A stretch of DNA of 64,000 nt from the NCBI RefSeq assembly GCF_026151205.1, contig NC_087078.1, positions 19,642,265-19,706,264 of the forward strand, read 5' to 3'. This DNA is from Bolinopsis microptera (Eukaryota > Ctenophora > Tentaculata > Lobata > Bolinopsidae). Below, one piece after another: positions 7,101-42,500 of this stretch. Position numbers and translations under genes: made by a program. A model generated the notes under the pieces. The model did no database searches and was not told the DNA's origin. It worked only from the letters and a program-made list of their open reading frames with translations. How positions within the stretch are numbered: the first letter of the stretch is position 1; every line of letters starts with the position of its first letter.

Positions 7101-10100
7101 ATTCTAGTTATTTACAGGTGTGTAGGGATAAAATAGAAATGTTTAATATAATACTATTTTTGAGGTCCTATAGCATTATGCATTGGCCAGTATTTGAGTG
7201 GAAATCTGGGCTCTTATAGTAGGCTGTAAAATTTTCGTTCACAGAGAGAATTGAATGGATTGCTCTTGCTGTGGCAGTAAATTTTGTAGGGTCTAGTGTT
7301 TTATCGGATAGCAAACCGGCTAGGTCAGTAATGTTTTTGGGATGGAAGTTAAATTTTTCTCCAACTAAGGAGTAGAGTAAACAGTCAGTTAGAACATGAA
7401 TTTCGTCCTCAATAGGCTTAAGCCCCTTGCTGAAAAAGCAAAAAGTGCACCATCGACGTTCTCTTGGTACTAGGGGGGTTTCGTAACGGCCCCTCTCAAT
7501 GTAAAGATTGTGGCAGCTAATACGAAACCTTGTTAAGCTTTTCCGAGCATCGGGGATCTTAACCACTCCTAAGTATGTTTCTGGTTCAAAATCATGTTTA
7601 ATTTGATTGTAGAATTCTAATTTAGGTGAGGATGCCTTGGCAGATTTCCAGGTATCCACAAATTCTTCCCTCATGTTGTGACTGATTTGGGTAGAGAGCT
7701 TGGATTTTGAAGAGGATGAGTGGGGGAAGTTATATTTGGTGAGAAGATTAGAGATGTTGGTGTACCAAGGAAGGCCCAGCATAATCTGCTCGTGAAATGC
7801 AGCGGAGAGAAGTTAGTTTACTCCATAATGTCTTTGGGTATGAGCTAAATTTAACCCCTTGCGATCTAATCTTGATTCTTCGTTGCGGGAAGAACATGTT
7901 TTGGCAATATTTCACCATACAAAACCAACTATCGTGAAACAACTGCCGTATTTTTTAAATGCGGAAATTTTCAGAGAAAAATTCGTATGCGAATTTAATT
8001 CGAATAATACGTTTAGTGCGAATTTCACAGCATTGAGGCAGAATGTTCATAAATTTTTTGGTCATCTAAAATAAATTTACCAGGGTAGCCATTAAGACGG
8101 ATGTAAAATGGGGTAAATGTCTACTATCTTTCCGAAATAAGTGTCTTCGCGTTCGCTTTGTGTGCAACATAGCTGACACTGGGCAACATAGATAACATGC
8201 TTGTCCTTGCATGATAGAGTTCCGTCTAGCACCAGTTCTATGTTGTTGACCACGATCTTTGAGTCCTTGTCAAATAGTACGGGGCAAGTTTTGCAGCCAG
8301 GTCCAATTATGTCCATTACACCTCTGTTGTTCTACATCAAGTAGTGGGTACTACTGGGTAGTTACCATAGTTACACTACAAGGGTTTCCAGTTGTCCCAG
8401 TTGTCGATTCTTCACTAGTGTATTACCGATTGAAGGGTGTTTCCTAGTGGCGATACTATCCGTACATCCCCACATAACCTCTTAATGTCCGAATTAAGTT
8501 CTTTAACCAACTTTTTAAGACCAATGTTATCAAGAGACTGTTGTACGGAGAATACAAGGCTCGGTGTCTCTGGTTGGATTTCCTGAGTTCTCAATAGACC
8601 TCTGTACTGCTTTCGGCTCGATTTCTTCTAGTTTGTCACTTTTGTGTCCACATCTGGCAAGATCCTCCATTTAAGATACGTTTTTTATATGTGATAGCGG
8701 TGTTAAATCCAATTTAAAATTATATTGAATCGATGGCTTACCCCAATTTTAAATAGGTCTGGGTAGAAACTTCCCTTTCTGCAGATCGTTGGTATTTGAT
8801 AATCTTCGTCTATAAACGTTATGTTAACTCCTGAAGGATCACCCATTTCAGTTTCTTTGTAACCATGATTAAGCCACCAGAATATACGAGTGTCACGTGA
8901 TAATGGAGCTCTATGGTCTGGTTGTTGTTAATAACGTACCTTTTCTCGAAGGCTAGCTAGTATGATAAAATTAAAAGTCAGTCAGTCTGATCATATTACA
9001 TGCTTCAACTTTAAACAAAATTTAATTTGATATCTTGTGCTTTGCTTCCGCGATTATGTTTATTGCGATTGGACCTTTACGTTTGACAATGTCTAGTCTC
9101 ATTGATTGGGGCACGCTAGCTGCATAATAGTCGAAGGTTCAAGACATTGTCAAATAATATGCTCAAGAAATATTTTAACAATTATGATATCTCATGATCA
9201 AAGTAAGATGATAATATAAATGTTCGTTTCAATTTGTTACAACAGTTGTAACTTGTTACTTGAAACTAATGCTAAATCACTGAATCTGCAGATACTGTTC
9301 GACGTCATATGACAATTTGTGAGTGAAAGCAAATGGGGAAATCTAAATGAAACCGAAATTAAAGATCTTCGTTGGAAACGAAATTAAGTTGTAAATCTGT
9401 CCACCAATTGTTTTAAATATCTAACACTAACCTTGAATATTTCGTACGCTGTTGACAAACACTTCTCCGGGTCGGGCACAAAATATTGTCAAAGTTGTTC
9501 CCTCCAGGTAACCTACAGTTGGAAAGTGTTTTTTAAAACCGCTGTCAGCTGGTTCCCTCCAGGTAACCTACAGTTGGAAAGTGTTTTTTAAAACCGCTGT
9601 CAGCTGGTTCCCTCCAGGTAACCTACAGTTGGAAAGTGGTTTAAAACCACTGTCAGCTGGTTCCCCCAATATAAACGAATTATCAAAATATTTACTCGAG
9701 ATGTATCAGTTAACTGCCTAACTGCCGTTTGCCGTGTCAGCGACAAGCTGCAGTTTACCTCAGTCAAGAATTTTGGATGGTAAGGTGGTTGATAGTGACA
9801 TGGTGTTGTGGTTTCATAGTCATTATATTAAATTTGGACATGAGTTTTGGAACATCTTGATTCTTGTAGGTGTGGTAGTAGTGGGTAGTAGTGGGTAGTA
9901 GTGGGTAGTAGTGGGTAGTAGTGGGTAGTAGTGGGTAGTAGTGGGTAGTAGTGGGTAGTGGTAATAGTGGGTAGTAGTGGTAATAGTGGGATAACATAGC
10001 AGCTCTAGAGCGTGATAATGTGTATTGTGTTTTTGGTTGTGTAGTAGTAATGTGTAATGTGTAGTAATGTGCTTGTGGAGTTGAAATGACGGAACTGCTG

Positions 10101-39500: not shown

Positions 39501-42500
39501 TGTCTGTCCGCGTGTAATTTCATACTTTCATACTTTCATACGACAATGTAATGCATGTTTTCAAATATAATAGGCGGGTGTGGTGCGGAGTTAATAAGGG
39601 TTAATTTCTAAAACGATTTAAAGCGGTTCAATACTGGAGTGATGAGGCCTAATAATGACTTAATTATCCACGAGAAAGAACTGATTATGCGATTATGTTA
39701 AATACTATTGGATCCGAGGGGCACTCCGAATAGAATTGCTCACCTAATGCGGGTTTTGACTCAGTGGGTAAATACTCCTACCCTTTTTAACTGCGGCAGT
39801 GAAACCCCGGTCGAAGGCCGGGTTACACTAGTATATAAGTATTACACTAGTATATAGATAATCTGTACTGTATATTTCGTTATCTTACCCGTTATCTGCG
39901 CTCATAGGAGTCAAAGGAGTATCCACTGTACTAGTCTGACTGATGGGAGAAGTTATCTCCAAACAGTGAGCCCCGTCTGACAGAGACTCTTGTTTAGCCA
40001 GGAGTAGTTTCAGCTCGCTGCTATCCAGACTGGTTGTGGCCTCCCCCTCTGAGGACACTCCGTGCGGTGCCGTCGTGTTGTTGTCCACTGTGGCACAGGC
40101 TCCGAGCTGGTTGTGGGAACTTTCTGTTACTTGTGGTACCTGCAGAACACAGGGGTGGAGGAAGCGGAGGGGGGATAGGGGGCAGGGGGATAGGGGGCCT
40201 GTCAGAACACAGGGGTGGAGGAAGCGGAGGGGGGATATGGGGCAGGGGGGATAGGGGCAGGGGATAGGGGCAGGGGGATAGGGGCAGGGGGGATAGGGGC
40301 AGGGGGATAGGGGCAGGGGGCCTGGCAGAACACACAAAATGGGCGTAGTTACACAATACACTATGTAGGGGGCCGGGGGAGGGGGCAATATGTAGGGCGT
40401 GACTTAACAGTAAAACAGATGTGGAGGTGCAAATGTAGTGTGACAGGCAGGCAGGCAGGTAGGCAGGCAGTACAAATGACAAAGGTATGGAGATTTGGGG
40501 GAGATTTAAATTTAATTGAAATAAAATATCGCTAACTAACATCGAGAGTTTCTTCGTCTAGATTGCTGAGAATTGTGGAAGATATTTTGCTTCTAGCTCT
40601 GCTTCCGGCACTGCTTGTATCACTCCGCGAGGAACTTGACCTCTTGGGTAGTATTACTGATATCGTTACTCGCTCGTCAACGTCTATACAGAGGGTAAAG
40701 TTCGACATCGGGAAAGTCTTTCTGAACCTGTTGAGAACGATTATTTGGATCATATATGATATAAGGTAAATAGGATTGTGGTATGAGAGCCGAGTCAAGG
40801 AAAAAATTACACAATTTAGGGTGATTGGAATCAGTGGATAAATTAGGTAGAGGAATTTAGGTAGAGGAATTTACTGATCTGTAAGGTTTTTCTTCAACAA
40901 AGTGCACTTGTAAACTAATTTACAATCGCTACAATGTGATGCAACGGATCTATTCTTTGTATCACTCTGTAGGGTTTAGGAAAGGAATGTATTCTAATGA
41001 AATTCAAAGTCGGTAAAAAGATTTACTTCTCCCTGGCTAGAAAATCTTCAGATATCTGGATAACGGCTTCTTTGTACTGAGAAGGATCGTTTCTAAAGTA
41101 CCGATATGTACGGGGTATCTTGAACCTGATTGAGGAAAAATATCACATTTTGATTTACAGTAAAGTCCAATACTAAGTTACTATACGGTTTCTAACAATG
41201 ACTGATTACTAAGTTACTACCTATACTCTTAAGAGTAGGTCGAGGTTTGGTAAATTTTCAACTAACCTTGCCATGGCACCGGGTGAAGTTTTTCTAAGAT
41301 CGTCAGCATTAAATACAGGACAGGATATCTCCGACTCGGATAAGTAGGTACCAAGAGGAGGGTCTACTTTCATAACATAAGGTAGAGCAAACAGTGCGTA
41401 GAAGTTAGCTGGTAGGTATCCGTACCTGCAAATTTAGTGGTCAGGGTTCTGGTTCTGGAGATTGTAACTCGTGTCCTTGCTAAGTTAATTTTAAGAACTA
41501 TAAAATGCAAAAGCCATAAATCAGAGATAGGAAATCCCTTAGTGTTAAACTGATTGATCGTTGAAACTAAGTGTTGAACTAGTATATATACTATTATATA
41601 TACTAGTATATAGTCAACATATATAGTCAACATATGAAATGTACCGAACAAGAGTAAGAGGTGATGTTATCTCGCGCTGTCCAGCCTCAATCCAACACAT
41701 AACATACTGGAACACTTCTACTTCGTCCTCTACACACAACCTATTGAAACATTGACTGATTCATTATTTTATTGCTAACTTCATCACCTCATTATTTAAT
41801 CAGTTGATTGTGCGACGTATATATTGATTTTGATATAACTTGATATTCGCAGATGCCAAAACCTTAAAAAGTAGATTCTGGACAAAACCTGCAACTCACT
41901 CCAACATTATCAAACCTATCATTTGAGATGATGTAACAAAACCTACAACTCACTCCAACATTATCAAACCTATCATTTGAGATGATGTAACTGAGAGTCT
42001 TAGCGGTGATGTGTAACCAGGTCTTGACCAGCGGCTGCGCTATTCTTGTTAGCGAATATTTCTTGTTGAACTTAAAGAGTTTGTTGCTACAAGCCTCTTG
42101 AAGCTCAGTGCACTCGTAGAATACTGCAAAGTCTAGATACTCCAAAACATTGGAATGGTTCAGATGATTCTGAGCAAAACTGAGGGGTAGAATTGTAATT
42201 AGTACCTATTAGTGGATTAGAAAACTGTTATTAGTAGATTAGAAAACTGTTAATAGTAGAAAGGTATAAAGCCCAACATTACAGGTTGTAGTACTAGTAA
42301 AACTTTTGTGTCAAGTTATTCGACAAATTTAAAATAGTGACATGATCTCATGATCTGCGAACTTACGTTTCAGTTTCTTCGACGAGCCACTTAACATTGT
42401 ATATCTTAGCAAGTTTGAGAAGGCCGAGAACGTTATCTTGGTGCACGTGAGCATATCCGTAGTACAAACTCCTTAGAAAATCCTAACAAGAGATTTGATT

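Follow-up and report, generated by a model that had tools for sequence, protein, structure and literature searches.

In human genes of segmental duplications, internal tandem repeats at exon–intron boundaries are described as leading to alternative splicing or to new introns (PMC2812944). For a potato RdRp gene, intron gain through a tandem duplication across an intron–exon boundary was reported, with the new intron observed in RNA-seq (PMC4974935). A third described system is the AGGT exon-duplication model (Rogers 1989; Hellsten 2011), which is treated in a review (PMC3443670) and for which cases in Drosophila are given (PMC2891723). Here, we compared with these systems a set of short tandem arrays from the ctenophore Bolinopsis microptera, found in and around one 64-kb stretch of DNA, the whole of which is referred to as the window.

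Tandem copies of splice sites in and beyond the window

The original prediction had placed tandem duplications on three splice junctions of the window. All three arrays were recovered by TRF, at 9497–9665 (site 1), 24681–24774 (site 2) and 41882–41991 (site 3), and the exon parts contained in them, given as 15 nt at site 1 and 20 nt at site 3, proved right to about one base (16 nt and about 21 nt). That each array spans a splice junction held for sites 1 and 3, based on the reading frame and, at site 3, also on Pfam and KLHL3, while at site 2 the microexon turned out to be a low-scoring prediction. The splice sites said to be redundant fit the sequence as well, since the copies score alike on our home-made scale: 4.8, 4.8 and 4.8 for the acceptors of site 1, 3.0 twice for the donors of site 2 and 2.8 twice for those of site 3 when array copies are compared. 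Head-to-tail copies with exon as well as intron sequence at a supported junction were found at sites 1 and 3, and the four arrays of the window described below have 2.0–3.1 copies, as against the more than about five expected of a minisatellite.

At site 3 (minus strand; 54 bp × 2.0, 98%), the unit is composed of about 21 nt of exon end and 33 nt of intron. It lies in the 3′ part of a BTB-BACK gene (41023–42482, minus strand) with exons 42482–42367, 42179–41970, 41740–41645, 41425–41267 and 41125–41023, the last of which ends in a stop codon; in the encoded protein, Pfam assigned 45.9 bits to BACK and 26.1 bits to BTB. The BACK-encoding exon with its canonical end at 41970 (41970–42179, minus strand) is joined in frame to exon 41740–41645, and the alignment with KLHL3 runs without gaps through this junction, which is thus well supported by sequence comparison. 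Four AG|GT donors follow each other here in 27-nt steps, giving exon ends at 41970, 41943, 41916 and 41889 with scores of 2.8, 1.9, 2.8 and 4.6, respectively. If used, the spare donors would add 9, 18 or 27 residues to the BACK domain.

At site 1 (minus strand; 55 bp × 3.1, 96%), the array spans an acceptor, and its unit comprises 39 nt of intron end, with GTAG and a CTGAC that we take to be a branch-point-like motif, and 16 nt of exon start (GTTACCTGGAGGGAAC). The candidate exon starts are 9512, 9567 and 9622. Four exons, 11407–11286, 11167–11112, 9512–9432 and 8917–8742, were predicted for this gene (8742–11407, minus strand), all with GT/AG borders and the first, 11407–11286, opened by an ATG. 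In the frame test, these exons formed a single open frame only via the exon-proximal acceptor, at which predicted exon 3 begins (9432–9512, minus strand), and the upstream acceptors led to a stop codon; by this frame the junction is well supported, and the upstream acceptors, if chosen, would give nonsense transcripts. By eye, the N-terminus of the gene product resembles a signal peptide. A Pfam search with the protein returned no match.

A fourth array of the window, absent from the original list, was found at 40139–40257 (minus strand; 60-bp unit × 2), where a polypyrimidine-rich intron end and CAG|G stand at the start of exon 40139–39889. Its acceptor scores 5.5 on the home-made scale, and the unit takes in no more than about 1 nt of the exon. 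Beyond the window, two further arrays are duplications across a junction as judged by open frame and splice motifs: one, within the 10 kb that follow the window, at the donor of a kinase-like exon (L008), which has three donors 33 nt apart with scores of 6.2, 6.2 and 6.8 and candidate exon ends near contig positions 19,712,722, 19,712,755 and 19,712,788, and one at an acceptor on another contig (L014).

At site 2 (plus strand), the repeat itself is present (43–44-bp unit × 2.2, 92%) and holds ACATA|GTAAGT, with donor GTs at 24699 and 24742, and the junction is a weak prediction. Gene prediction set here a putative microexon of 24 nt (24675–24698, plus strand; V L G A L K Y I) with a low score of 1.9, which is phase-compatible with the predicted exons 24029–24189 and 24406–24503. 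The spliced peptide found no match in Pfam, and its best PDB hit, a snaclec (E 0.096), is too weak to be taken as homology. Weak minus-strand exons were also set at this site by the predictor. The repeat is duplicated as well in a segmental copy elsewhere on the same contig. When paralogues were sought for the BACK exon, for exon 4 of the site 1 gene and for the DNA of sites 1 and 3, the best candidates scored contained the query alone, and those for the 40139 stretch contained only the stretch itself and a weak neighbouring repeat.

Short arrays and predicted junctions in the sampled genome

Beyond the window, 20 random 10-kb pieces (200 kb) and 40 kb of the same contig were sampled, the latter made up of the 10 kb on either side of the window and a 20-kb stretch surrounding the segmental copy of site 2. 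Approximately 17% of the sampled B. microptera bases fell in tandem repeats. In total, 36 short arrays (25–120 bp, 1.8–4.5 copies) were obtained, including 9 in the window, 8 in the 40 kb and 19 in the random pieces; 13 were removed for overlap with long or low-complexity repeats, and the remaining 23 (7, 4 and 12, respectively) were tested. Single-exon scores are blind to short exons such as those of sites 1 and 2, and chains of predicted exons were therefore used. Junctions were taken from a home-made predictor, built on hand-written splice motifs with long open frames as seed and trained on the same sequence, which yielded 1.65 junctions per kb at a score of at least 3 with matching coding score, 1.14 at score 5 and 0.92 at score 7. 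Of nine exons built by hand at sites 1 and 3, it recovered eight in whole or in part, 41740–41645 being the one it did not find. It is noisy: at sites 1 and 3 it settled on a different one of the duplicated splice sites, it put tiny plus-strand exons within the site 1 array, and it is weak on short exons.

A predicted junction was found in 1/12 arrays of the random pieces, compared with 2.9, 2.6 or 1.7 expected, a number of arrays so small that a two- to three-fold excess is compatible with it. Across all samples, with the overlap rule of this later test relaxed equally for arrays and random intervals, the count was 7/23 vs 5.1 or 4.3 expected (4/23 vs 3.1 at a stricter score), and 6/22 vs 4.9 or 4.2 when the segmental copy was left out (stricter, 4/22 vs 2.8). 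The earlier overlap rule, which loses the arrays at 24681 and 40139, gave 5/23 vs 4.2 (global) or 4.6 (local), and 3/23 vs 2.7 or 3.0 at score 4. Window arrays of similar size at 32330, 32817 and 55335 carry no predicted junction. Junction-spanning arrays thus look no commoner than chance in this small random sample.

Other measures were also calculated. By the single-exon score, none of the 23 arrays reached p<0.1 with long ORFs kept in the null; with long ORFs taken out, p<0.05 was reached by 4/23 (cap 8; three of them at p<0.01), and by 2/23 and 3/23 in the other two settings. In a set of 53 arrays that includes shorter units and has the 40139 array masked, T of at least 14 was found in 3, against an expectation of 3.8 (global) or 4.5 (local shifts), whereas the high scores lean the opposite way (T of at least 16 in 3 vs 1.5 or 2.2; at least 18 in 1 vs 0.3 or 0.8). 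For long minisatellites, 28/113 edges were near a predicted junction, and 30.3 would be by chance. Three cases in a single window had originally been called striking, which the random pieces of the genome do not bear out, and the proposed birth of minisatellites at splice sites finds no support in the 23 arrays taken together or in the long-array edges, beside which a local excess in the window stands.

Placement, use and origin of the copies

With a probability of roughly 0.7, we regard these arrays as ordinary short tandem duplications that are randomly placed and tolerated since one intact site stays. Short tandem duplications (units of 33–60 bp, 2–3 copies) would arise throughout this tandem-repeat-rich genome, and few would cross exon–intron boundaries because such boundaries come about once per kilobase. 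A duplication that does cross one would copy a whole splice signal, which for an acceptor includes the branch point and a short piece of exon and for a donor the end of the exon. Correct splicing through one of the copies would let the event survive. We infer that placement is random and that the copies are mostly neutral; the spare sites are probably used to some extent.

Selected alternative splicing, by which the in-frame donor ladders of site 3 (27 nt) and of the kinase-like exon (33 nt) would have been kept for useful length variants, appears unlikely. All donors at site 3 (4/4) and at the kinase-like exon (3/3) keep the frame and are free of stops; however, the BACK score falls from 45.9 to 31.8 bits with the 9- and 27-residue insertions of the extra site 3 donors, stops are brought in by the site 1 array and, on translation, by L014, and the unit length of site 2 is not divisible by three. 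The site 3 copies are moreover 98% alike and therefore probably recent.

Arrays with a predicted junction are in local excess in and around the window. In the window itself, which was chosen for showing the pattern, 4/7 arrays carried one, where 1.5 or 1.3 would be expected (P=0.061 or 0.041). Adding the 40 kb of the same contig gave 6/11 vs 2.05 or 1.86 (P=0.018 or 0.012; stricter, 3/11 vs 1.1), and 5/10 vs 2.1 or 1.7 once the segmental copy was excluded (P=0.063 or 0.029; stricter, 3/10 vs 0.9, P=0.066). It is conceivable, if doubtful, that duplications are drawn to junctions in this part of the chromosome, which lies near its end (5/10 independent arrays vs about 2), building ladders of equal frame-keeping sites by which protein segments would lengthen in fixed steps; if true, ctenophores would have in such ladders an active supply of splice variants and of new introns. 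A more general version, in which junctions are mutational hot spots for minisatellite birth either genome-wide or in the near-terminal chromosome part, draws on the same local excess but has against it the random pieces, the long arrays, which do not lie near junctions, and the selection of the window for its pattern, and we consider it quite improbable.

Intron gain under way seems very unlikely. By analogy with the Rogers/Hellsten model and potato RdRp, an AG|GT in the unit would allow one unit to be spliced out as a new mini-intron, and AG|GT does stand at the junction of site 1, site 3, the 40139 array and the kinase array; a boundary-spanning duplication is also reported to have created the new intron of the potato gene (PMC4974935). 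Nevertheless, units of 33–60 nt would make very short introns, and L014 (TAG|TC) and site 2 (ATA|GT) are without AG|GT at the junction. An artefact of noisy long-read assembly can be nearly dismissed, for although the published B. microptera assembly is described as based on PacBio long reads, wtdbg and pilon polishing (PMC10232365), and the segmental copies round site 2 show many indels for few substitutions (14 indels, 11 of one base, vs 14 substitutions in 964 columns), a substitution separates the copies of site 3, copy 3 of site 1 is unlike the other two, and the site 2 duplication is found in both segmental copies. The genome paper also reports Iso-Seq libraries (PMC10232365).

Comparison with known systems

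The recent, near-identical junction duplications among these arrays are clean natural experiments on the choice of the spliceosome among identical competing sites, and they inform the first step of intron gain via tandem duplication. The arrays could yield protein variants. Use of the copies would mean that, in a ctenophore, the proteins vary by frame-keeping steps at site 3 and at the kinase-like exon; should the copies go unused, the arrays would show that junction duplications are tolerated in a repeat-rich genome.

Among described cases, a human OPA1 intron mutation (PMC5331656) offers, as reported, only a loose parallel. As in the AGGT model, a duplicated AG|GT provides a donor–acceptor pair spaced by one unit, but the duplicated segment of that model is described as exonic, whereas the ctenophore arrays span an existing junction (PMC3443670, PMC2891723). 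The placement of tandem repeats at exon–intron boundaries is shared with the human segmental-duplication genes, whose cases are described as transcript-backed and variable among paralogues (PMC2812944), and the potato RdRp unit, reported to consist of branch site, polypyrimidine tract, AG and exon start, is matched by the units of site 1 and L014 and closely approached by that of 40139 (PMC4974935). The ctenophore arrays belong to another phylum than the human cases and, set against these as well as against the RNA-seq-backed potato intron, are read from genomic DNA; they add one more example of an already described path to alternative splicing and to the gain of introns.

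Anatomy of the junction-spanning arrays

The three tandem arrays of the original prediction were recovered by TRF close to their proposed coordinates, at 9497-9665 (site 1, minus strand), 24681-24774 (site 2, plus strand) and 41882-41991 (site 3, minus strand), and its raw-sequence reading was mostly correct; the duplications are real. Its count of three cases was too low, as blind inspection of 23 short arrays (unit 25-120 bp, 1.8-4.5 copies) added three further junction cases, one in the window and two in sampled pieces outside it (L008 and L014). Splice scores throughout are those of a home-made exon predictor, which was trained on the same sequence and is noisy.

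The site-1 gene comprises four predicted minus-strand exons with GT/AG borders in a single open frame, whose N-terminal stretch appears signal-peptide-like by eye. Its 55-bp unit contains a CTGAC motif, which we take to be a possible branch point, together with a GTAG acceptor and 16 nt of exon start, and all three acceptors score equally (4.8 each; median for predicted acceptors, 4.5). The open frame requires exon 3 to start at 9512, starts at 9567 or 9622 giving a stop after GYLEGTS. The same unit anatomy was found in an acceptor array on contig C2 (L014:5544-5653, 48 bp ×2.3), which combines TACTAAC with a tract of pyrimidines, a TAG and 16 exonic nt; its outermost copy no longer has an acceptor (score −5.4). 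Elsewhere on the minus strand, open frames at 7171-8331 look by eye like a non-LTR retroelement end; a Pfam search with them gave no match.

Site 3 lies in a minus-strand BTB-BACK gene with five exons in one frame up to the stop. With the donor at 41970, Pfam scores were 45.9 bits for BACK and 26.1 for BTB, and the protein aligned with KLHL3 (4hxi) ungapped over the junction; the ancestral junction was therefore very probably located at this base. The 54-bp unit combines approximately 21 nt of exon with 33 nt of intron, and four AG/GT donors follow every 27 nt, all in frame, at 41970, 41943, 41916 and 41889 (scores 2.8, 1.9, 2.8 and 4.6, respectively; median for predicted donors, 4.0). The latter three are predicted to add 9, 18 and 27 residues, with which the BACK score becomes 31.8, 44.1 and 31.8 bits, respectively. 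Another donor array, 33 bp ×3, lies in the right-hand 10-kb flank (L008:6447-6546), where the ACACAG/GTATG end of a kinase-like exon occurs in triplicate, adding 11 residues per step in frame (scores 6.2, 6.2 and 6.8); the Pkinase match of this exon (E 1e-6, 28.8 bits) is under the cut-off of 31.7.

The fourth window array (40139-40257, 60 bp ×2) duplicates a polypyrimidine-rich intron end and CAG/G ahead of exon 40139-39889. Separately, a 33-bp ×3.1 array at 32330-32432 starts directly after an acceptor-like TTCTGCAG and has one frame open by eye, and may be a short coding repeat. A similar repeat (CGTTCAT..TTAATGTCCGTTCA), by eye perhaps a transposon end, is found at 32817-32880 and at 4950-5015 of another sampled piece (L007).

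Site 2 and its segmental duplication

At site 2 the repeat itself is real, and the junction is less sure than those of sites 1 and 3. The predictor chained 24029-24189, 24406-24503 (score 1.7) and a 24-nt exon at 24675-24698 (score 1.9) in phase, both of these scores being low, and also placed weak minus-strand exons across this stretch. The spliced peptide gave no match in a Pfam search and chance-level matches only against PDB.

A segmental duplication encloses the site, spanning 17182-31022 in pieces, with an inverted copy near 19.89-19.90 Mb of the same contig, C7. Both copies carry the tandem duplication, which therefore probably predates the segmental event. The copies are 97-98% alike, except in an array of 15-bp units (85%); over 964 columns round site 2 they are separated by 14 substitutions and by 14 indels, 11 of which are single-base, with one indel falling within the proposed exon 24406-24503. 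This indel load is consistent with either noise in the assembly or decay of one copy; the published assembly is described as built by wtdbg on PacBio reads with pilon polishing (PMC10232365).

The segmental duplication also holds an array of 15-bp units (TATTATTGCTACTGA; 2.3 kb, 21672-23983), to which arrays at 17627-17943 and in the second copy are related, and a minus-strand open frame at 29016-29462 that matches RNase H (E 4.7e-6) and is probably a fragment of a retroelement.

Junction overlap compared with chance

The genome totals 264.65 Mb in 232 contigs. The window occupies bases 19,642,265-19,706,264 of C7 (20,109,789 bases), which ends approximately 0.4 Mb beyond it. TRF repeats covered 16% of the window and approximately 17% of 20 random 10-kb pieces (mean of 20 values); short arrays numbered 9 in the window, 8 in another 40 kb of C7 (both flanks and 20 kb round the segmental copy) and 19 in the 200 kb of random pieces. 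After removal of arrays overlapping long or low-complexity repeats, 23/36 were kept. Predicted junctions had densities per kb of 3.57 (all predictions), 1.65 (score at least 3), 1.14 (at least 5) and 0.92 (at least 7).

Within the window, 4/7 arrays contained a predicted junction versus 1.5 or 1.3 expected (P 0.06 or 0.04; stricter score, 2/7 vs 0.7). The frequency had been called striking, which the random pieces did not bear out (1/12 vs 2.9, 2.6 or 1.7 expected). Since the window was picked for showing the pattern, a fair comparison has to be made with the random pieces; their 12 arrays show no excess but are compatible with a two- to three-fold effect. Window plus the other 40 kb gave 6/11, a count including the segmental copy of site 2, versus 2.05 or 1.86 (P 0.018 or 0.012; stricter, 3/11 vs 1.1); with that copy omitted, window plus flanks gave 5/10 versus 2.1 or 1.7 (P 0.063 or 0.029) and 3/10 versus 0.9 (P 0.066). 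Overall, 7/23 arrays held a junction versus 5.1 or 4.3 expected (stricter, 4/23 vs 3.1), and 6/22 versus 4.9 or 4.2 (4/22 vs 2.8) with the copy omitted. Arrays make up 0.90% of bases and contained 1.2-1.5% of predicted junctions (14/921, 6/464 or 4/328).

A wider set of 53 arrays, from which the 40139 array was masked out, showed no excess at T of at least 10 (12 vs 11.6 or 11.2), 12 (4 vs 6.1 or 7.1) or 14 (3 vs 3.8 or 4.5), with 3 versus 1.5 or 2.2 at T≥16 and 1 versus 0.3 or 0.8 at T≥18. Nor were edges of long minisatellites in excess near predicted junctions (28/113 vs 30.3 expected; stricter, 16 vs 15.0).

Proposed origin and known parallels

These junction duplications look like an ordinary by-product of a repeat-rich genome. 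Short head-to-tail duplications would arise at any place, and one straddling a junction would be tolerated because it leaves the exon one complete, correctly placed site; the spliceosome would then face two or three near-identical sites. Every donor choice at site 3 and in the kinase-like exon is predicted to keep the frame. On translation, upstream acceptors at site 1 and in the C2 array bring stop codons, and therefore either the exon-proximal site would win or some transcripts would be lost. On an intron-gain reading, an intron made of one 33-60 nt unit would be unusually small.

Within partial literature coverage, judged by titles and abstract openings, no paper on tandem repeats at ctenophore splice sites or introns was found. 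The Bolinopsis cases are new examples of an already known kind of event, since precedents are described for human segmental-duplication genes, in which internal tandem repeats at exon-intron boundaries alter splicing (PMC2812944), for Drosophila, where tandem duplications are a source of novel introns (PMC2891723), and for potato, where a new intron came from a duplication crossing a boundary (PMC4974935).
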